From Limnochordaceae bacterium (GTDB lineage Bacteria; Bacillota; Limnochordia; Limnochordales; Geochordaceae), in contig JADBKR010000006.1 of assembly GCA_014896295.1 (NCBI GenBank), positions 124,001-188,000 of the forward strand: a stretch of 64,000 nt of DNA, written 5' to 3'. The notes under the pieces were generated by a model, which saw only the letters and a list, made by a program, of their open reading frames with translations, was not told the DNA's origin and did not search any database. Positions 34,400-44,330 of the stretch are shown in pieces (the stretch's first letter is position 1; every line of letters starts with the position of its first letter). The position numbers were made by a program, and so were the translations under genes.

Positions 34400-34429
34400 T
34401 TGACAGGCGCGCGATACCATCATTAGAAT
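34400..34429 (+). promoter_or_regulatory. Strong sigma-70-type promoter for the Rieske/PQQ operon
   Basis: A perfect -35 hexamer TTGACA (34400-34405) and TAGAAT (34424-34429, five of six matches to TATAAT) are spaced by 18 bases. It lies ~55 bases before the Rieske start. This is the best canonical promoter in the window. Confidence 0.75.
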
Positions 34430-34483: not shown

Positions 34484-35050
34484 ATGAGGGTATGCGCCGG
34501 GCGTCCTTGTAGCCGCCGGGAGCTGCTTCAGGCGGCGGCCGCGGGGGCCACCCTGCTCGTGGCCGGCCCCGCCGGAGCGCAATCGGGAGCGCGGCCGGCC
34601 CCGGGCGACCTCCTCGTTGCCGCAGGCGCCGAAGCAGGCGACCATTCGAAAGCGCTTACCATCGAGGATCTCTCCGTCGATCAGGCTGTCTTGGCGTATC
34701 CCATGGATCCAGGATCCGGTACGGTGAAGAAGGATCGGGCCGCCCTGATCGTGCTGGTGCGCCTGCAACCGGACGCCATCGACCCTGCCATCCGCCCCCG
34801 GGCCGCCGGTGGAATCCTGGGTTACTCGGCCCTGTGCACCCACATGGCGTGCATCGTCGACCAGTACACCGCGTTCGGCTCCGGGCAAAAAGAGCTGCGG
34901 TGTCGCTGTCATGGGAGCGTGTACGACCCCCGTCGAGGGGCGGTCGTACTGGACGGTCCGGCCCCCCGCCCGCTACCTGCCATCCCGCTTGCCGTGCGTG
35001 CCGGCAAACTCGTCGTTGCAGGAGACTTCACGGGCAAGGTGGGTCCGTAG
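34484..35050 (+). CDS. Tat-exported Rieske [2Fe-2S] protein, 188 aa
   Basis: The N-terminus has a twin-arginine signal, SRRELLQAAAAGATLLVAG. The C-terminal half is a Rieske domain: box I CTHMAC (Cys118, His120, disulfide Cys123) and box II CRCHGSVYD (Cys140, His143, disulfide Cys142), followed by a Gly/Pro-loop, LDGPAPRPLPAIPL. It resembles the small subunits of arsenite-oxidase-like or quinol-oxidising complexes. It is the first gene of the locus ahead of the PQQ dehydrogenase, with no cytochrome c nearby, so it could accept electrons from PQQH2. That role is inference. Length is normal for a soluble Rieske protein. Confidence 0.9.
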   Translation: MRVCAGRPCSRRELLQAAAAGATLLVAGPAGAQSGARPAPGDLLVAAGAEAGDHSKALTIEDLSVDQAVLAYPMDPGSGTVKKDRAALIVLVRLQPDAIDPAIRPRAAGGILGYSALCTHMACIVDQYTAFGSGQKELRCRCHGSVYDPRRGAVVLDGPAPRPLPAIPLAVRAGKLVVAGDFTGKVGP

Positions 35051-35117
35051 CGGGCGAGACGCGGCCGGACGGAAGGGAAAGGGGGACGGCGAGGGCAGGC
35101 ACAGGGAGTTGGACCGT

Positions 35118-35133
35118 TTGCAAGCGATTGCAC
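35118..35133. promoter_or_regulatory. cre/LacI-type operator upstream of the PQQ dehydrogenase
   Basis: TTGCAAGCGATTGCAC matches 15 of 16 positions of the CcpA cre pattern WTGNAANCGNWWNCAW; its core GCAAGCGATTGC (35120-35131) is nearly palindromic. It lies 93 bases before the dehydrogenase start, between the Rieske gene and the dehydrogenase. A CcpA or LacI-family repressor could bind and tie expression to carbon supply. A related core occurs at 49865. Confidence 0.55.
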
Positions 35134-35225
35134 ATGGCGATCGCGCATGGGTGCTGTTGGAGGCACACGGCGCGTGGGCCGGGTAAGCCGCCGCAGCCGC
35201 CACGCAGAACGGGGGTAGCAGCGGG

Positions 35226-36941
35226 ATGAAAGGCTCGACGAAAGCGATGAGGCTCTGGGCGTTCATGGCCGCCTGTCTCGTTGTCGCCTTGGCCTCCGTC
35301 GTCCAGGCGGGGCCGGCGTACACGCCGGTGACGGATCAGATGCTCGTGAAGCCCCCTGCCGGCGACTGGCTCATGTTCCGGGGTTCGTACAACGGCTGGG
35401 GCTACAGCCCGCTCCAGCAGATCGACACGAGCAACGTCAAGGAGTTGGTGCCCGTCTGGACCTTCTCCACGGGGGTGACCGAAGGGCATGAAGCGCCTCC
35501 GATCGTCCACGACGGGATCATGTTCGTCACCACGCCGTACAACCGCCTGTATGCCCTCGACGCCAAGACCGGGGATCTGCTCTGGAAGTACGAGCGCCAG
35601 CTGCCGGAGGACGTCTTCCCCCTCGTCTGTTGCGACGTGGTCAACCGGGGTGTGGCGCTTTACGGCGACAAGGTGTACATGGGCACCCTCGACAGCCATC
35701 TGATCGCGTTCGACGCCCGTACGGGCAAGACCGTCTGGGACCGGACCGTCGGAGACTACAAGGTCGGCGAAATCATCACGTCGCCGCCGCTGGTGGTGAA
35801 GGGCAAGGTCATCACCGGCGTCCACGGCGGGGAGTTTGGGGTGCGGGGCTTCCTGCAAGCCTTCGACGCCGAGACCGGCCGCAGTCTCTGGAAGACGTAC
35901 ACCACCCCGGGGCCCGGTGAGCCGGGCCACGACACCTGGAGCGGTGACGCGTGGATGCACGGGGGCGCAGCACCGTGGTACGTCGGCACCTACGATCCCG
36001 AGCTCGACGTGGTGTACTGGGGGACGAGCAATGCCAGCCCCTGGTTGGGTGAGGCCCGTCCCGGGGACAACCTGTATACCGCATCGGCGCTGGCGCTGGA
36101 TCCCGACACGGGGAAGATCCGCTACCACTTCCAGTACACCCCTCATGACGTGTGGGACTACGACGGCGTGAACGAGCTCGTCCTGGCAGATCTCACCGTC
36201 GATGGCCGCAAGGTTCGCGCCGCCCTCCACGCCAACCGCAACGGCTACTACTACGTCCTCGATCGGACGGACCTGCAATTCGTCAAGGCGATGCCTTTCG
36301 TGCACGTCAGTGCCGTTCGCAGCGTGGATCCCAAGACCGGCCGGCCCCAGTACGACCCCCAGGCCACCCCGGCCCTCGGCAAGCAGGTATCGGCCTGCCC
36401 CGGATTCCTGGGTGGCAAGAACTGGAGCCCCATGGCCTACAATCCCCAGACCGGCTTGCTGTACATCCCCAGCAACGAGTGGTGTATGGACATCAAGGGG
36501 ATCCAGGTCAGCTACCTGGCCGGTCAACCGTACGTCGGCGCCGAATTCGAGATGAAGCCGGTGCCCCAGCTCGACCACATCGGCAAGCTGCAGGCCGTCG
36601 ATCCGGCCACGGGCCGCCAGGTCTGGTCGCAGCGCTTCCAGATCCCCATCTGGGGCGGCGTGCTCACCACCGCGGGCGGGCTGACCTTCTACGGCACGCC
36701 GGACCGCTACTTCCGGGCGTACGATGCCAAGACGGGGAAGGTCCTGTGGCAGTTTCGGACCAACTCCGGCGTCGTAGGCGTCCCGTCCACCTTTGAAGTG
36801 GACGGCGTGCAATACGTGGCGGTGCAGTCAGGATGGGGCGGCGCCGTCCCGCTGTGGGGAGGTCCGATCGTCCAGCGGGTGCGCGACGTCCCCAAGGGCG
36901 GCGTGATCTGGGTCTTTGCGCTGAGGGACAAGGTCCGGTGA
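35226..36941 (+). CDS. PQQ-dependent alcohol dehydrogenase, lanthanide-type (XoxF/ExaF-like), 571 aa
   Basis: A Sec signal (AFMAACLVVALASVVQA) exports an eight-bladed-propeller quinoprotein. Tryptophan-docking repeats are visible (LYALDAKTGDLLWKYERQ, DARTGKTVWDRTV, DAETGRSLWKTY). The vicinal Cys135-Cys136 of PQQ dehydrogenases is in FPLVCCDVV. Metal ligands are Glu203 (GGEFGVRG) and Asn269 (GTSNASPW), with catalytic Asp311 in WDYDGVN. Asp313, two residues after, is the extra aspartate that marks lanthanide-dependent enzymes; calcium enzymes have Ala there. The enzyme oxidises an alcohol in the extracytoplasmic space. There is no fused cytochrome. It is followed by MoxJ-like and ABC genes. Substrate specificity cannot be read from the sequence. 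Confidence 0.9.
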   Translation: MKGSTKAMRLWAFMAACLVVALASVVQAGPAYTPVTDQMLVKPPAGDWLMFRGSYNGWGYSPLQQIDTSNVKELVPVWTFSTGVTEGHEAPPIVHDGIMFVTTPYNRLYALDAKTGDLLWKYERQLPEDVFPLVCCDVVNRGVALYGDKVYMGTLDSHLIAFDARTGKTVWDRTVGDYKVGEIITSPPLVVKGKVITGVHGGEFGVRGFLQAFDAETGRSLWKTYTTPGPGEPGHDTWSGDAWMHGGAAPWYVGTYDPELDVVYWGTSNASPWLGEARPGDNLYTASALALDPDTGKIRYHFQYTPHDVWDYDGVNELVLADLTVDGRKVRAALHANRNGYYYVLDRTDLQFVKAMPFVHVSAVRSVDPKTGRPQYDPQATPALGKQVSACPGFLGGKNWSPMAYNPQTGLLYIPSNEWCMDIKGIQVSYLAGQPYVGAEFEMKPVPQLDHIGKLQAVDPATGRQVWSQRFQIPIWGGVLTTAGGLTFYGTPDRYFRAYDAKTGKVLWQFRTNSGVVGVPSTFEVDGVQYVAVQSGWGGAVPLWGGPIVQRVRDVPKGGVIWVFALRDKVR

Positions 36942-37021
36942 GTCCCTGCCGGGGCGAGCAAGGCCGGTCGGCTCCGAGTCCGGGTCGACCCGGCCTGCTC
37001 GCCCGCACGAGGAGGCAACCC

Positions 37022-37936
37022 ATGCGTCGAGCCCCTTGGGCCTCACGGTGGCGGCCCGTTGCAGCCGGAGCACTGGCAGTCTGGCTGCTCATGGGCACAT
37101 GGCCGGCCGTATCCGCGGCGACCCCGGCGCCGCCTTATCCCCAAGGCTGGACCAGGGTGGAGGGCAACCGGCTCACCTTCTGCATCTCGGCCCAACAACC
37201 ACTCTTCGACCTCGAGGAGAGCATCGCCCGAGCCATCGCCCTCGCCATGGGCGCCAACCCGGATATCTACGTCTACCACGCGAGCGCCCGGCAAGGCCCC
37301 GCGATGGTCATCCAGCGGCAGGAGTACGTCATCCTCTTGACCGACTACTGTGACGTGTTCATGGGGCTGCCGCGAAGCGTCAACGCCACGTTCGACTACC
37401 CGGCGGACGAGCAGCAGCTCTCCACGCGCCCGTACTACACGACCCAGTTCGTGCTGGTATCCCGCCATCCCCACGTCTCTCGCCTGTCGGATCTCCCTGC
37501 CCGGGAGCCGGTGGGTCTGGAGACGGCCAGCTTACCGTCCTTGTTCTTGAGCGTGATGCGCCCTGCACTGCCGCAAAGGCAGTACCCCGGCATGGTGGGG
37601 AGCGAGGCCCTGCTGGACGCGCTGGAGCGTGGCGAAGTGAAGACCGCCGTCGTCTGGGCGCCGGCGCTCTTCCAGCGCTGGCCAAGCCCGGAGTCCGTGG
37701 GGCTTCACGTGCATCCGATTCAAGAGCTTCCCAACATGGAGTGGTTGGTGGTGGGAGGGATCCGGCGCGACCGGACCGGCCTTCGTACCCAGATCGACGC
37801 GGCCATCCTGCGCCTGCTGCAGTCCGGCACGATCAAGGCAATCCTCGAGCAGCACGGCCTGCCACCGGCCTTCTTCCGCCCTGCGCCCCTTCGCTACACC
37901 CCCGTCGAGGGAGACGCGGCCGAGCATGGGAGTTGA
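37022..37936 (+). CDS. MoxJ/XoxJ-like periplasmic binding protein, 304 aa
   Basis: A signal peptide (ALAVWLLMGTWPAVSAA) leads a binding-protein fold resembling MoxJ of methanol oxidation: LTFCISAQQPLFD, LLTDYCDVFMGLPRSV, STRPYYTTQFVLVSRHPHVS. MoxJ homologues are thought to aid PQQ or metal loading or maturation of quinoprotein dehydrogenases. ATG 37022 follows AGGAGG and begins 80 bases after the dehydrogenase. Its end overlaps the ATPase start by 11 bases. I believe the MoxJ/quinoprotein-associated families are the closest; confirmation needs a profile search. Confidence 0.8.
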   Translation: MRRAPWASRWRPVAAGALAVWLLMGTWPAVSAATPAPPYPQGWTRVEGNRLTFCISAQQPLFDLEESIARAIALAMGANPDIYVYHASARQGPAMVIQRQEYVILLTDYCDVFMGLPRSVNATFDYPADEQQLSTRPYYTTQFVLVSRHPHVSRLSDLPAREPVGLETASLPSLFLSVMRPALPQRQYPGMVGSEALLDALERGEVKTAVVWAPALFQRWPSPESVGLHVHPIQELPNMEWLVVGGIRRDRTGLRTQIDAAILRLLQSGTIKAILEQHGLPPAFFRPAPLRYTPVEGDAAEHGS

Positions 37937-38918
37937 GCGAGCGGCGGCGGTAGAGGCGCGCGAGCTCCGCTACCGTTACGAGGGCGGCGTGGAGGCCCTT
38001 CGCGGCGTCAGCCTCCGGGTGCCGGCGGGGCAGTTGTTTGCCCTGCTCGGTCCCAACGGCGCCGGGAAGACCACCCTCGTGCACATTCTCTGCACCCTCA
38101 TCCCGCCCGTTGGCGGCGACGCCCGCGTCGCCGGGTACAGCGTGACCGAGGAGCCGGGCCGGGTGCGACGGCAGCTGGGCCTGGTCTTTCAGGAACCCAG
38201 CCTGGACGAGCGGCTGACCGTCTGGGAGAACCTGGACTTCCATGCCCGCATCTACGGTGTGCCCCACCGGGAAGCGGCCCGCCGCATCAACGAACTCCTG
38301 GAACTGGTGGAACTCTCCACGTGGCGCCACGTGCCGGCGCGGCAGCTGTCCCGGGGGATGAAGCGCCGGCTCGAGGTGGCCCGCGCCATGGTCCACAGGC
38401 CGTCGATCCTGGTCCTGGACGAACCCACGGTGGGGCTGGACGTGCCCACCCGGACCCGGCTGTGGCAATACCTTGACCGGCTGCGCCGGCACGAGGGCGT
38501 CACGCTCTTTCTCACCACCCATTCCATGGATGAGGCCGAGGCGGCGGAGCAGGTGGTGATCCTCGACGAAGGGAGGGCCGTGGCACAGGGAGCCCCGGAC
38601 GAACTGCGCCGCCTCGCCGGAGGCGATACGGTGATGCTCCGGGTGGACGAGGAGGGAGAAGAGGAGATCAAGGCCAGGTGGAGCGCCCACCTGGTCTCCG
38701 ATGGCGAGTGGCTGACCTTGAAGGTAGATCGGGCCGAGCGCTTCTTCGAGAGCTTCATGCCGCAGTACGGCGGGCGGGTCAAGTGGGTGGAAGTCCGGCG
38801 CCCCAGCCTGGAGTCCGTCTTCATGACGCTCACCGGCAAGCGCCTGCGAGACGACCTGGTCGACCCGAGGGAGGTACTCCTCGCCTTCGGCCGGCGGGGC
38901 GGGGAGCATACGCGATGA
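37926..38918 (+). CDS. ABC-2 type ATPase, quinoprotein-associated, 330 aa
   Basis: A single ABC domain: Walker A GPNGAGKTT (about residues 40-48), Q-loop FQEPSLDERLTVWENLDFH, signature LSRGMKRRLEVARAM, Walker B ILVLDEPTVGLD and the switch FLTTHSMDEAE. The C-terminal ~90 residues form an ABC-2 export-type tail. It overlaps the MoxJ-like gene and, by ATGA, the permease. Similar ATPases are known beside PQQ alcohol dehydrogenases in proteobacteria. It could export an unknown product or act in PQQ or metal traffic. Confidence 0.85.
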   Translation: MGVERAAAVEARELRYRYEGGVEALRGVSLRVPAGQLFALLGPNGAGKTTLVHILCTLIPPVGGDARVAGYSVTEEPGRVRRQLGLVFQEPSLDERLTVWENLDFHARIYGVPHREAARRINELLELVELSTWRHVPARQLSRGMKRRLEVARAMVHRPSILVLDEPTVGLDVPTRTRLWQYLDRLRRHEGVTLFLTTHSMDEAEAAEQVVILDEGRAVAQGAPDELRRLAGGDTVMLRVDEEGEEEIKARWSAHLVSDGEWLTLKVDRAERFFESFMPQYGGRVKWVEVRRPSLESVFMTLTGKRLRDDLVDPREVLLAFGRRGGEHTR

Positions 38919-39712
38919 CAGACCTCGGCACGGTCTACGCCATCTGGCTGCGGGAGCTCAAGCACAGCCTGCGCGACACCGGGCAGCTCACGGGAGCGTT
39001 CTTGCGGCCCATTTTGTGGGTGATGATCTTCGGGATCGGGCTCACGCCCTATTTTCGCGGGGGGTTCACCGAGGCCACGTTCGTGGTGCCCTTTACTTAC
39101 GCGCAGTTCATCTTCCCCGCCGTGGCCGTTCTCAACGTCATGTACGCCTCGGTGCAGTCGGGGGTCTCCATGATCTGGGACAGAGAGTTCGGCTTTTTCC
39201 GGGAGATCCTGGCCTCGCCGGCGCCGCGCCCCGCGGTCTTCGCCGGCAAGCTCCTGGGAGGCGCGACCGTCGCCACGCTACAGGGCAGTCTCATCCTGAT
39301 CCTCGCCCCTGCTGCCGACGTGCCGCTGTCGTGGCACCAGACCCTGGCGGCGCTGGGCCTTCTGGCCGTGGTGGCGCTGGCGTTCACGAGCCTGGCCATG
39401 GCGATCGCGTCCCGCATGGTGAGCTTCCAGGGCTTCGGGGTATTTGCCAATGCCCTCATCTTGCCCGCCTACTTCCTCGCCAGCTCCATCTTTCCGCTGG
39501 ATCCCTCCCTCTCCGTCGAGCAGCAGATCCTCGTGTTCCCTCCCTGGATGGTGTTCGCCGTGCGGGTCAACCCCGTCACGTACCTCATCGACGCGCTCCG
39601 CATGGTGAGCATCCGCTACACCCAATTCGACCCGCGCCTGGATCTGGCGGTAGCCGGGACCCTGCCCGCGGTGCTCATGCTCGTCGCTTACCGGGAGTTC
39701 AACCGGCGATGA
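38915..39712 (+). CDS. ABC-2 type permease, 265 aa
   Basis: Six hydrophobic segments in an ABC-2 membrane arrangement, with VYAIWLRELKHSLRDTGQLT at the start and REFGFFREILASPAPRPAVF in the central loop. ATG 38915 overlaps the ATPase stop (ATGA), and its own stop overlaps the next gene likewise. With the ATPase it makes an exporter-type pair, unusual for genes lying between two binding proteins. Confidence 0.85.
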   Translation: MTDLGTVYAIWLRELKHSLRDTGQLTGAFLRPILWVMIFGIGLTPYFRGGFTEATFVVPFTYAQFIFPAVAVLNVMYASVQSGVSMIWDREFGFFREILASPAPRPAVFAGKLLGGATVATLQGSLILILAPAADVPLSWHQTLAALGLLAVVALAFTSLAMAIASRMVSFQGFGVFANALILPAYFLASSIFPLDPSLSVEQQILVFPPWMVFAVRVNPVTYLIDALRMVSIRYTQFDPRLDLAVAGTLPAVLMLVAYREFNRR

Positions 39713-40521
39713 AGCCGAGGGCAAGCAGCCACCTGGCCGTCTGGGCCGTGGGCCTGGCGGCGCTGTTCGGCCTGCGCTACCTGCCGCCCGACACGTCGCT
39801 CGACCGGGTCCAGCGGAGCGGTACCCTGACGGTGTGCCATCCTGCGTCGCTGCCCCCGTACGTCACGTACCATCCCGACGAGGCCCGGGCTGACGGCCTG
39901 GAGGCGGAGCGGGTCATGGGCATCGCCAGGGCGCTCGGCGTGAGGGTCCAGTGGAACCCCCAGGTCAACTGGTACGTCACGAGAGACCCGACCGCGTGGG
40001 GGATCCGCAAAGGTTCTTGTGACGTCTTGGCCGGCGGGATTGCCGCCACCGACGCCTCCCGTGGGCTCCTGGTGCTTTCCAAGCCGTACCTGCGAGTCTC
40101 GTGGGCCATGATCGCTCGGCGAGCGCCCCGCGAGGGGGATCGCGTCGCCCTGTGGGTGCCCTACCTGGGGCTCGACCGCGTCCGGATGCGGGCCACCGAG
40201 CTGCTCACGGCCCGTGGCTTCCAACCCCATTTTCCGGGGTCGGCCGAGCAAGCCGCACGAGCGCTGGCCGGGCACGAGGTGGTCGCGCTCCTCACCGACG
40301 AGCCGACGGCTCGGTGGGTAGCGCAGCAGCTGGCCGGTCACGTCCCGCTGGTCGTCGCGCCGGAGCCGGCGCTAGGGACCTTTCAACTGGCCCTGGGATT
40401 CTGGAAGGGCGACGTGACCCTCGAGCGGGCGGTCAACCGGGCGCTGGAGTCGGCCCTCGGCCAGGCGGGAGAGGAGACGCCCGGCGATGCCGGCGGCCAA
40501 TTCGGCAGCGCCCCCCAATGA
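39709..40521 (+). CDS. Second quinoprotein-associated binding protein, 270 aa
   Basis: A short anchor-like N-terminus (HLAVWAVGLAALFGLRYL) precedes a type-II binding fold: LTVCHPASLPPYVTY, GSCDVLAGGIAATDASRG and LLTDEPTARWVAQQLAG. The pattern is like amino-acid/MoxJ-type binding proteins and unlike a typical sugar-binding protein. ATG 39709 overlaps the permease stop. The last 50 codons overlap a convergent minus-strand gene, so the C-terminus may be overextended on one of the two. Confidence 0.7.
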   Translation: MKPRASSHLAVWAVGLAALFGLRYLPPDTSLDRVQRSGTLTVCHPASLPPYVTYHPDEARADGLEAERVMGIARALGVRVQWNPQVNWYVTRDPTAWGIRKGSCDVLAGGIAATDASRGLLVLSKPYLRVSWAMIARRAPREGDRVALWVPYLGLDRVRMRATELLTARGFQPHFPGSAEQAARALAGHEVVALLTDEPTARWVAQQLAGHVPLVVAPEPALGTFQLALGFWKGDVTLERAVNRALESALGQAGEETPGDAGGQFGSAPQ

Positions 40522-41112
40522 CCCGAGCAGCACCAGGTAGGCGAGCAGGTGGGGCAGGCTCCAAAAGAGGAAGAAGAACCGTACTTGGGCCGCCAGTCCC
40601 GAAGCCCGGCCCATTCCCTCGGCCAAGAACGCGGCCAGCGTCGCCAGGCGCAGCCCGCGCCGTACGCCCGCTCCGGCGGCATGAGCCGGCGCCAGAGGAC
40701 GCATCGCCCAAGCGATGTGGGGCGCGGCGACCAGCGCACCGGCCCAGATTGCGGCAGTCCCGGTCAATCCGGCCAGCAGGTTGAGCAGCAGGAGCACGGC
40801 AAACCACGGTGCCGCCAGGGCCGCCAGGAGCCACGGGGTGAGCCATCCTTCGGCCCGCCGGTTGACCCTCATGAGCGCGCCCGCGCCGGCTCCCAGGGCC
40901 AGGGCCAGTGCCGCCGTTTCACCGAGTCGCAGCGCGCTGGCCTCGAAGTGAGTGGCCAGGATGGGCCCCTCCGCGGCCACCCAGGCGCCGGCGGTCCCCA
41001 GTGCCTGCACATGCTGTAAAGCTGCGGCAACGGCCAGCACCATACCGGCGACAGCCGCTACGGTGGCCCGGGAGAGCCTCCTCGGGTCTCTCGGCAAGCT
41101 GGTCCGAGCCAT
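40372..41112 (-). CDS. Membrane protein, ABC permease-like, 246 aa
   Basis: This gene converges on the quinoprotein-associated operon. After MARTSLPRDPRRLSR there are about six hydrophobic segments (TVAAVAGMVLAVAAAL, LGETAALALALGAGAGALM, LAAPWFAVLLLLNLLAGL, IWAGALVAAPHIAWAMRPLA). The layout and EAA-like AAFLAEGMGRASG loop are similar to nitrate/taurine-type ABC permeases. ATG 41112 follows GGGAGGAGGGGAG. It ends with a basic tail overlapping the preceding gene by 150 bases. Without an ATPase or binding protein beside it, its role is uncertain; it may use the neighbouring MoxJ-like proteins. Confidence 0.5.
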   Translation of the reverse strand: MARTSLPRDPRRLSRATVAAVAGMVLAVAAALQHVQALGTAGAWVAAEGPILATHFEASALRLGETAALALALGAGAGALMRVNRRAEGWLTPWLLAALAAPWFAVLLLLNLLAGLTGTAAIWAGALVAAPHIAWAMRPLAPAHAAGAGVRRGLRLATLAAFLAEGMGRASGLAAQVRFFFLFWSLPHLLAYLVLLGSLGGAAELAAGIAGRLLSRLAEGRLQRPVDRPLEGHVALPESQGQLKGP

Positions 41113-41235
41113 GCCACTCCCCTCCTCCCGGATGGCTCCCGCCCTGCTCGGGGCGCAGGCCCCGGTAGGCGTGCGGCTACGCCACGAGCGGGCCCGGTCC
41201 TTCACGGGTGGCGGCCGGCCCGTGGGCCGGGGCGC

Positions 41236-41264
41236 TTGATCGGAGTTCCCGCTCCCCGTACAAT
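41236..41264 (+). promoter_or_regulatory. Promoter of the TRAP-SDR operon
   Basis: TTGATC (41236-41241) and TACAAT (41259-41264) are 17 bases apart, matching four and five of six consensus positions. They lie ~90 bases before the DctP-type start and lead a run of four genes. Confidence 0.6.
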
Positions 41265-41354
41265 GGGTCTCAACCGCTCACGGTAATCGGTACCACATTT
41301 AGCGCTCGTGCGGTAGAGCGGGGGTCCGACGCGGGAAGGCAGGGAGGCGGGCTC

Positions 41355-42419
41355 ATGGGACGATGGCGCGGGGCACGGGACGAGGACGGCAGCCGGCGCA
41401 GGGCCGCGCGGTGGGTGCACGCCGGCGTGGCGCTGCTGGGCTTCGCGTGGCTGCTGGCTGCGGGTGTGGCCCCAAGACCGCAGGCGCAGGCAGCGGGAGC
41501 TCCCGTGGTGCTCAAGCTGGGGCACGTGGTGCCCACGGGCCACCCGTATCACTTCGGCGCGACGCAGTTTGCCCGCCTCGTCGGCGAGCGAACCGGCGGG
41601 CGGGTACGTATCGACGTCTACCCGGCCGGGCAGCTCGGGCCGGGCGAGCGCGAAGAGGTCGAAGCGCTGCAGCTCGGCGGCATCGATCTGGTGGTGACGG
41701 GAACGGCCGTCCTCTCCAACTTCCTCCCCGACTTCGGGGTGATGGACCTGCCGTTTCTTTTCCGGGACTACCGCCACGTCGACGCCGTCCTGGACGGCCC
41801 GGTCGGTCGCCGGCTCCTCGACCGGCTCAACGGCGCCGACCTCCACATCACCGGGCTTGCGCTCTGGGAGCAAGGCTTCCGTTACCTCACGAACAGCCGG
41901 CGCCCCATCCTGTCGCCGGCCGACGTGCGGGGCCTCAAGATCCGGGTTCAGGAGAACCCCATCCACGTGGACAGCTTCAACGCGCTGGGCGCGAGCGCCA
42001 CCCCCATGGCGTGGGGGGAAGTGTACACGGCGCTGCAGCAGCACGTCATCGACGGGCAGGAAAACCCCATCCCCGTCCTCACCAGCGCCCGGCTGTACGA
42101 AGTGCAGAAGTACCTGGCGATGACCGGCCATTTCTACGCGCCGGCCATCCTCCTCATCAACACGGATCGGTTTCGCTCGCTCCCGGCCGACGTGCAGCAG
42201 ATCCTGGTCGACACCGCGAGGGAAGTGTCCAGGTCCGAGCGGCAGGAGGCCCGCCGCATGGAGGCCCAGCAGGTCGAAGAGCTCAAGCAACTCGGGATGC
42301 AGGTGACCACCCCCGACAAAGAAGCGTTTCGCAGGGCGATGCAGGGGGTCTACGACAAGTACCGGGCCCGCTTCGGCAGCTTGATCGACGAGATCCAGAA
42401 GGCGGGCGCCGGGTCATGA
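41355..42419 (+). CDS. dctP: TRAP transporter substrate-binding protein (DctP family), 354 aa
   Basis: A signal peptide (VHAGVALLGFAWLLAAGVA) leads a DctP fold: LKLGHVVPTGHPYHFGATQF, PAGQLGPGEREEVEALQLGG, GLKIRVQENPIHVDSF and YEVQKYLAMTGHFYAPAIL. The usual arginine that salt-bridges a carboxylate sits in GLKIRVQE, so the ligand is probably a sugar acid or other carboxylate. ATG 41355 has GGGAGGCGG upstream. Its stop overlaps dctQ. Confidence 0.9.
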   Translation: MGRWRGARDEDGSRRRAARWVHAGVALLGFAWLLAAGVAPRPQAQAAGAPVVLKLGHVVPTGHPYHFGATQFARLVGERTGGRVRIDVYPAGQLGPGEREEVEALQLGGIDLVVTGTAVLSNFLPDFGVMDLPFLFRDYRHVDAVLDGPVGRRLLDRLNGADLHITGLALWEQGFRYLTNSRRPILSPADVRGLKIRVQENPIHVDSFNALGASATPMAWGEVYTALQQHVIDGQENPIPVLTSARLYEVQKYLAMTGHFYAPAILLINTDRFRSLPADVQQILVDTAREVSRSERQEARRMEAQQVEELKQLGMQVTTPDKEAFRRAMQGVYDKYRARFGSLIDEIQKAGAGS

Positions 42420-43039
42420 GCGGGCAGCCCGGCATGGGCGAGGCATCGGCCGTTGCGACGGCCTCGTCCGCCCGTCCGGCCGGCGCGGTGCTCGCCGCCG
42501 TCGCCCGGGGCGTGGAGGTCGCAAGCCGGTGGCTGGACCTGGGCTCCGTGGTAGTGGCGGCGGGCCTCACGGCCGTGATGGCCGGGGCGCTCATCCTGCA
42601 GGTGGCGTTCCGTTTCGCCATCCAAAGCCCGCTGTCGTGGTCGGAGGAGCTCGCGCGCTACTGCTTCGTCTGGGTGGGTTCGCTGGGGGCGGCTGCCGGG
42701 GTGCGCCGCGAGCTCCACCCGGGTCTCGACCTCGTCGTGGGAAGGCTGCCGGGCCGGGCCAGGGCGGCGACGGGCACCGTCGCCCTCGCGCTGGTCGCAC
42801 TGTTTGCCGCCACCGTTGCGGTGGCGGGATGGAGGCTGGCCGCGTTCAACATGCGCCAGCGCTCGCCGGCCATCGGCTTGCCGATGGGCTATCCGTACGC
42901 GGCCGTGCCCGCCGGAGCCGGGCTCATGGCGCTCCACGCCGCGGCGCTGCTGGCCGCTCGGATGACACGGAGCGAGGAGACCGGCCGGGCCGGGCAGGTC
43001 GAGGCGCCGGCCGCCGGGAGCCCGGAGGCTGTGTCGTGA
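42416..43039 (+). CDS. dctQ: TRAP transporter small permease (DctQ family), 207 aa
   Basis: Four hydrophobic segments in the DctQ pattern: VVVAAGLTAVMAGALILQV, the conserved ALSWSEELARY-like SPLSWSEELARYCFVWVGSL, ATGTVALALVALFAATVAVA and PMGYPYAAVPAGAGLMALHA. ATG 42416 overlaps the dctP stop (ATGA), so translation is coupled. It is the small membrane subunit of the sodium-dependent TRAP system. Confidence 0.85.
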   Translation: MSGQPGMGEASAVATASSARPAGAVLAAVARGVEVASRWLDLGSVVVAAGLTAVMAGALILQVAFRFAIQSPLSWSEELARYCFVWVGSLGAAAGVRRELHPGLDLVVGRLPGRARAATGTVALALVALFAATVAVAGWRLAAFNMRQRSPAIGLPMGYPYAAVPAGAGLMALHAAALLAARMTRSEETGRAGQVEAPAAGSPEAVS

Positions 43040-43052
43040 GCGGAGCCAGGCC

Positions 43053-44330
43053 ATGAGCGGGACGGCAGGGGTCGTCGCCCTCGTCCTGCTGCTCGCCGGG
43101 CTCCCGATCCCGTTCGTCATCGGGCTGGCGGCACTGGCGGGGCTGCAAGCGGGAGGGCTTCCGCTGGCGCTCGCCGTGCAGCGCATGTTCGCGGCGCAGG
43201 ACTCGTTTCAGTTGATGGCCATCCCCCTCTTCATCCTGGCAGGCGCGCTGATGAACGCCGGGGGTTTGAGCGAGCGGCTCGTGGCGCTCGCCGAGGCGCT
43301 GGTGGGCCGGCTGCGGGGAGGGCTCAACCACGTCAACATCCTCTCCAACGTCTTCTTCTCGGGCATCTCGGGGTCGGCCGCCGCGGACGCATCGGCCGTC
43401 GGATCGATCCTCATCCCCGCCATGGAGCGGGCAGGGTACCGCCGGGAGCTGGCTGCCGCGGTGACGGCGGCGGCTTCGCTCATCGGTCCCATCGTCCCGC
43501 CCAGCATCCCGATGATCCTCTACGGCGTGCAGGCCGAGGTCTCCATCGCCCGGCTCTTCCTGGCCGGGGCGGTGCCGGGGCTGCTGCTGGCGGCGGCCCA
43601 GATGGCGACGGCCGCGTGGGTGGCCCGCCGGGAAGGGCTCGTGGCCGGGCGCAAGGGCAACCTTGCCGAGATCCTGCGGGCGCTTCGGGGGGCGATCTGG
43701 GCCGCTTTCATGCCCGTCTTGATCCTCGGCGGCATCCTCGGAGGGGTGTTCACGCCGACGGAGGCGGCGGCCGCAGCGGTGGCCTGGGCGCTGCTGGTTG
43801 GGGCCTTCGTCCACCGGGAGCTGACCCTGGCCCGGATCGGGCGAGCGCTGGCGGAAGCCGCGCTTACGACCGGCATCGTCATGCTGATGCTGGCCACGAC
43901 CGAGATCCTGGCGTGGATCCTGGCCCGGGACCAGATCCCGCAGAGGCTGGCCATGGCGGTCGCGGGCATGGACGTGCCCCCGTGGCTGGTGCTGCTGCTC
44001 GTCAACGTGGCGCTCCTGATCGTCGGCATCCCCCTGGAGCCGGCGCCGGCGCTGGTGCTGCTCGTGCCCGTGCTCATGCCGCTCGTGCAACGGATCGGGG
44101 TGGATCCGGTGCATTTCGGGGTCATCATGGTGCTCAACCTGGTCATCGGCCTCGTCACGCCGCCCGTGGGAGCGTCCATCTTCGTCGTGTCGGCCATCAG
44201 CCGGGTGCCGCTCGGGTCGATGGCGAAGGCCATGGTACCGTTCCTGGTGGCGTCGCTGGTGGTGCTCCTGCTGGTCACGTACGTGCCGGCGCTGTCGCTG
44301 TGGCTGCCGTCGCTCGCCCGAGGGGGCTGA
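43053..44330 (+). CDS. dctM: TRAP transporter large permease (DctM family), 425 aa
   Basis: About twelve hydrophobic segments with the DctM signatures IPLFILAGALMNAGG, FFSGISGSAAADASAVGSIL, LIGPIVPPSIPMILYG and LVIGLVTPPVGASIFVVSAI. Length is typical. It completes the DctPQM set, and the SDR gene follows 17 bases later in the same operon. Confidence 0.9.
   Translation: MSGTAGVVALVLLLAGLPIPFVIGLAALAGLQAGGLPLALAVQRMFAAQDSFQLMAIPLFILAGALMNAGGLSERLVALAEALVGRLRGGLNHVNILSNVFFSGISGSAAADASAVGSILIPAMERAGYRRELAAAVTAAASLIGPIVPPSIPMILYGVQAEVSIARLFLAGAVPGLLLAAAQMATAAWVARREGLVAGRKGNLAEILRALRGAIWAAFMPVLILGGILGGVFTPTEAAAAAVAWALLVGAFVHRELTLARIGRALAEAALTTGIVMLMLATTEILAWILARDQIPQRLAMAVAGMDVPPWLVLLLVNVALLIVGIPLEPAPALVLLVPVLMPLVQRIGVDPVHFGVIMVLNLVIGLVTPPVGASIFVVSAISRVPLGSMAKAMVPFLVASLVVLLLVTYVPALSLWLPSLARGG

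Follow-up and report, generated by a model that had tools for sequence, protein, structure and literature searches.

Background

ABC-2 units with binding proteins are already known from quinoprotein gene clusters. PedA1A2BC of Pseudomonas putida (PMC6839425) and LutABEF of Methylorubrum extorquens (PMC7391723) each combine an ABC-2 pair with periplasmic proteins in a PQQ-dehydrogenase cluster, and both are needed for lanthanide-dependent growth. A role in cofactor insertion has been proposed for XoxJ and MxaJ, and the same review of the ped cluster notes that the transporter to which PedG belongs still awaits identification (PMC12997753). A further system that is considered here is NosDFY, an ABC unit with a periplasmic partner that acts in copper-site maturation of nitrous oxide reductase, a periplasmic beta-propeller enzyme (PMC11573801). 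The route by which PQQ and lanthanides enter periplasmic dehydrogenases is an open question, on which the cassette described below touches.

Organization of the gene cluster

The window, a stretch of 64,000 nucleotides from a Limnochordaceae bacterium (contig JADBKR010000006.1), carries six consecutive genes on the plus strand. These encode a Rieske [2Fe-2S] protein (34484-35050; PF00355), a PQQ-dependent alcohol dehydrogenase with a lanthanide-type metal site (35226-36941), a divergent periplasmic protein of the MxaJ/XoxJ/PedG type (SBP1, 37022-37936), an ABC-2 ATPase (37926-38918), an ABC-2 permease (38915-39712) and a family-3 binding protein (SBP2, 39709-40521). The Rieske and dehydrogenase genes are located directly upstream of SBP1, and the four genes from SBP1 to SBP2 overlap by 11, 4 and 4 bases, all on the same strand. 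A first-pass annotation of this DNA had described these four genes as tightly coupled and assigned them to a MoxJ-like protein, an ABC-2 ATPase, an ABC-2 permease and a second binding protein. The overlaps are found in the sequence and all families hold, the MoxJ-type match of SBP1 being weak. Its puzzle of binding proteins encoded beside an ABC-2 system has a precedent in PedA1A2BC and LutABEF.

A consensus scan found one promoter-like site (TTGACA-18-TAGAAT, 34400-34429, plus strand, 11 of 12 consensus matches) upstream of the Rieske gene and no other in front of the six genes, which therefore probably form a single transcription unit that starts with the Rieske gene.

Dehydrogenase, Rieske protein and PQQ synthesis

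The dehydrogenase scores 713.7 bits against TIGR03075, the methanol/ethanol family with a cut-off of 480 bits. Among solved structures, the nearest in sequence are 6zcv and 6zcw, annotated as quinoprotein ethanol dehydrogenase, which we take to be PedH, a lanthanide enzyme from P. putida. Equivalents of all four metal ligands are present, namely the lanthanide-marking Asp together with Glu, Asn and Asp, as are the vicinal cysteines. By family score and ligand set, the enzyme belongs at the sequence level to the PedH/XoxF kind and probably needs a rare-earth metal. PQQ itself can be made by this organism: its genome encodes PqqE (496 bits) in an apparent pqqD-E-B-C run, with B, C and D assigned by eye.

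The Rieske protein (best PDB matches 3fou/1nyk, 3e-34) is 42% identical to its counterpart at the same place in a Deinococcus cluster and may be the electron acceptor of the dehydrogenase. In the window and in Deinococcus (L133:3861-4436), the gene before the dehydrogenase encodes a Rieske protein, and a cytochrome c gene is found in several other clusters. The second available genome of the same species, G190, contains a further, Ped-like quinoprotein cluster, in which one protein joins a XoxJ-like domain to a cytochrome c domain (L055:10552-11850). The assembly of the window has a single TIGR03075 match, so the second dehydrogenase of G190 is either absent from it or was missed by the assembly.

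The two binding proteins

The best PDB match of the SBP1 profile is MxaJ (9ism_B, 1.9e-6), with XoxJ weaker. SBP1 thus shares profile homology with XoxJ, MxaJ and PedG, its gene lies 3' of and adjoining the dehydrogenase gene, and its two cysteines, invariant across the alignment, correspond to a pair common to these proteins. In contrast to them, SBP1 is linked by translational coupling to ABC-2 genes and stays far below the curated NCBIfam cut-offs (TIGR03870, 43.9 of 212 bits; TIGR03871, 32.3 of 258 bits, 2e-11). Because of these scores, SBP1 is, as judged by profile comparison, a divergent MxaJ/XoxJ relative and not a formal family member. In two relatives, G215 and G302, a XoxJ-like domain is fused to a PQQ_ABC_bind domain of the PedA1 type (L057:6752-8812 and L058:6814-8943, both minus strand), which connects XoxJ-like proteins with ABC-2 systems.

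SBP2 matches PF00497 (SBP_bac_3, 4e-9) and is homologous to the family of SBP1 (3e-10); its nearest PDB sequences are amino-acid-type binding proteins. Its N-terminus is a hydrophobic stretch, after which comes a conserved LPPDTSL motif, and it is therefore predicted to be membrane-tethered. Two cysteines are invariant across the alignment, and the protein is conserved in a Limnochordia relative, Deinococcus and Paracoccus. AlphaFold models from single sequences (mean pLDDT 36 for SBP1 and 42 for SBP2) were too poor for a fold search.

ABC-2 ATPase and permease

Walker A, signature and Walker B motifs are intact in the ATPase, an ABC_tran/DrrA-like protein, and the permease matches PF01061 (ABC2_membrane). 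Profile searches with the quinoprotein-associated ABC families, as suggested by the first-pass annotation, returned matches, all of them below the cut-offs: the ATPase reaches 232 of 302 bits for TIGR03864 and the permease 99 of 241 bits for TIGR03861. Ped-type proteins of the same order likewise remain below these two cut-offs. The DrrAB models score 289 of 312 bits (TIGR01188) and 152 of 223 bits (TIGR01247), again under the cut-offs. Scans of the eight proteins encoded at 34484-42416 detected no PedA1-type (TIGR03863) or PedA2-type (TIGR03866) partner. A scan of the genome contigs with the ATPase returned mostly generic ATPases, and the best two loci, L002 and L003, had no quinoprotein among their ORFs, read by eye.

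In a phylogeny that includes further ABC-2 permeases, 15 SBP2-linked permeases form one clade (support 100/98), within which the window pairs with Deinococcus (100/97). Its sister group (98/94) comprises four permeases from the same order; their clusters carry genes for PQQ_ABC_bind domains and, in two cases, also for PQQ_ABC_repeats proteins, i.e. a set of the Ped/Lut type. Canonical proteobacterial PedC forms a separate clade that is weakly placed nearby.

The window thus resembles PedA1A2BC and LutABEF in its ABC-2 pair with periplasmic proteins in a PQQ-dehydrogenase cluster and, unlike 13 other SBP2-type clusters, also in its link to a lanthanide-type quinoprotein with all four ligands. 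It differs in that its binding protein belongs to family 3, not to PQQ_ABC_bind, and in the lack of a PQQ_ABC_repeats beta-propeller protein. What is new in this variant of the Ped/Lut kind is the other kind of binding protein, the absence of a beta-propeller partner, the separate permease clade and the coupling to a XoxJ-like protein. No paper describing this ABC-2/SBP2 variant, nor one joining Limnochordia with methanol dehydrogenase or XoxF, was found in the literature searched.

Conservation of the gene set

In G307, a genome from another family of the order, the genes occur in the same order (dehydrogenase-SBP1-ATPase-permease-SBP2). The same order, including the Rieske gene, is found on plasmid pDAETH-2 of Deinococcus aetherius (the dehydrogenase is 58% and the permease 62% identical to that of the window), and plasmid pAMI5 of Paracoccus aminophilus carries the same parts rearranged. 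As it is seen again in other families and phyla, the arrangement is not a chance one. Matches to the SBP2 profile above 175 bits occur in 7 of 296 genomes of the family of Rubellimicrobium and in 6 of 397 genomes of the family of Enterovirga, both alphaproteobacterial families being named here after the organisms of the loci used as centres. The permeases of both families are 56-72% identical to that of G307, which suggests that the set was spread by gene transfer.

The ABC-2 permease and SBP2 occur together in all of 24 loci compared, including the window. Dehydrogenase, SBP1, ABC-2 pair and SBP2 are all visible in 15 of the 24, over three phyla. Of the other nine, two break off at a contig edge after SBP1, the dehydrogenase of L161 is located about 10 kb off (L206), L202 has a dehydrogenase and lacks SBP1, L198, L200 and L204 lie on short contigs, and in L201 and L203 there is no quinoprotein within about 7-9 kb of the ABC-2/SBP2 unit. 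The partner dehydrogenase of Deinococcus has the full lanthanide-type ligand set of the window. Most partner dehydrogenases, those of 13 other SBP2-type clusters, lack two of the four metal ligands, the equivalents of Glu172 and Asn256, as well as the vicinal cysteines.

At L200:120-4488 and L201:6533-10320, the ABC-2/SBP2 unit lies between a TctC-like binding protein on its upstream side and a luciferase-like oxidoreductase on its downstream side, with no quinoprotein seen. At L202:12259-19460 and L203:1209-7065, the unit adjoins large membrane proteins and, in L202, VWA, DUF58 and MoxR-like AAA genes. Genes of these kinds also occur in mxa clusters.

In L134, L157, L161 and L163, the ABC-2/SBP2 genes are interleaved with those of a PqqT-type (PQQ-binding) importer; the binding protein of this NitT/TauT-type importer in the relatives matches 9b1u/9b1v (4e-45). 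PqqE above the cut-off is absent from G307 and from six of the seven Rhodobacteraceae carriers, draft genomes in which genes may be missing. In bacteria that lack PqqE, the ABC-2/SBP2 unit is thereby connected with PQQ importers of the PqqT type. A PQQ-fold dehydrogenase without PqqE above the cut-off was seen for L059, L155 and L159-L163, in some cases with an adjacent PqqT-type importer.

Possible functions of the cassette

The explanation preferred here, tentatively and as somewhat less than an even bet, is that the cassette serves the quinoprotein, with the ABC-2 pair and SBP2 handling its cofactor (PQQ and/or metal) for insertion or recycling. It is favoured because the most constant partner of the unit is a PQQ-fold dehydrogenase with a XoxJ-like protein, and the recurrence of the set beside quinoproteins in distant bacteria hints at a role in supplying or inserting the cofactor of the enzyme. 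The dehydrogenase would work in the periplasm. SBP1, following the role proposed for its homologues, would bind the enzyme before its maturation and so allow PQQ and metal to enter it, and ATPase, permease and SBP2 would form an ATP-driven inner-membrane unit for PQQ, metal or a PQQ-metal complex. An insertion role is suggested by the proposals for XoxJ and MxaJ together with the fusions in G215 and G302. The operon coupling, the 15 complete loci, the sister relationship of the permeases, the nearness of SBP1 to MxaJ and the interleaved importer genes also speak for cofactor handling, as does the importance of the related Ped and Lut systems for lanthanide-dependent quinoprotein growth (PMC6839425, PMC7391723). 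The amino-acid-type sequence of SBP2, the loci L201 and L203 without a nearby quinoprotein and the TctC-like protein of L200/L201 speak against it. Of the lanthanide or PQQ shuttle proposed in the first-pass annotation, the link to a PQQ enzyme stands, with a quinoprotein directly upstream of SBP1 here and the link kept in most relatives; we infer that the cofactor is the cargo and that SBP2 serves the ABC-2 transporter.

A narrower role, import of Ln3+ or a lanthanide chelate into the cytoplasm with SBP2 replacing PedA1/LutA, is doubtful; such import is the function ascribed to PedA1A2BC and LutABEF. It draws on the permeases being sister to Ped/Lut-like permeases of the order, on what has been published for Ped and Lut (PMC6839425, PMC7391723) and on the full ligand sets of the window and Deinococcus dehydrogenases. 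To judge from these ligand sets, a lanthanide-only role would fit those two and not the 13 ligand-poor partner dehydrogenases, beside which the ABC-2/SBP2 unit is nevertheless kept; no PedA1 or PedA2 homologue is found among the genes of the cluster either. The wide variation of the partner dehydrogenases beside a constant unit also argues against uptake or removal of an alcohol-derived acid or toxic intermediate. Such a substrate or product transporter would agree with the likeness of SBP2 to amino-acid-type proteins, with the L200/L201 unit and with the DrrA/DrrB models outscoring the Ped models, but the last point says little because Ped-type proteins of the same order show the same preference, and we regard this function as unlikely. 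Export of cytoplasmic PQQ to the periplasm, where it would be handed to SBP2 and SBP1, appears very improbable. ABC-2 systems usually export, the genome of the window can make PQQ and the PQQ export route is open, a different ABC protein having been proposed for it (PMC7391723); simple export fits poorly because most carriers tested have no PqqE above the cut-off and would have nothing to export unless a PqqT-type system had imported PQQ beforehand.

By analogy with NosDFY, the ABC-2 pair and a membrane-tethered SBP2 could also be an ATP-driven machine for quinoprotein assembly and not a plain transporter, which we consider distinctly unlikely. The ABC-2 pair would then drive SBP2 and SBP1 in charging the apo-dehydrogenase with PQQ and metal. 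By sequence, SBP2 is of the binding-protein type, which NosD is not. If true, this would be a maturation system not described before, distributed by gene transfer and present also in bacteria that cannot make PQQ.

The translational coupling of a PedG/XoxJ-like protein to an ABC-2 unit in the window, in an arrangement seen again across three phyla and also on the plasmid of a cultured methylotroph, makes the question of how PQQ and lanthanides reach and enter periplasmic dehydrogenases directly testable.

Convergent reading frame

An ORF on the minus strand (40372-41205, start perhaps at 41112) converges on the operon and overlaps SBP2 by exactly 150 bases (40372-40521), the length given in the first-pass annotation, which had proposed to resequence this overlap. 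In G190, 98% identical in this region, the layout is the same, the ORF is intact and the overlap shows neither substitution nor gap; as it is unchanged there, a sequencing artefact is very unlikely. By codon score, the SBP2 frame is preferred as far as about 40500 and the minus-strand frame across most of the interval 40500-41000, which together with homology rules out a chance ORF.

No match to NCBIfam or Pfam was obtained for this ORF. It aligns to the profile of the NitT/TauT-type permease that is encoded near quinoproteins in relatives (hhalign, 98% probability, 1.7e-13), with about 29 columns around the ATPase-coupling loop missing. The gene is therefore permease-like, as had been suggested, and homologous to the permease of a PqqT-type importer, which strengthens the earlier hint at PQQ, but it lies outside the operon. 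In contrast to the importers of the relatives, where a PqqT-like protein is present, it has no adjacent PqqT-like protein or ATPase. Outside the overlap, seven non-synonymous and six synonymous changes separate it from G190, pointing to at most mild constraint.

Beyond the convergent gene, a TRAP-type transporter is encoded on the plus strand (41358-44330; DctP by Pfam, membrane ORFs by eye). In Deinococcus, a gene also converges on the end of SBP2 and slightly overlaps it (L133:9669-11294); it encodes an FAD-dependent oxidoreductase, not a permease.
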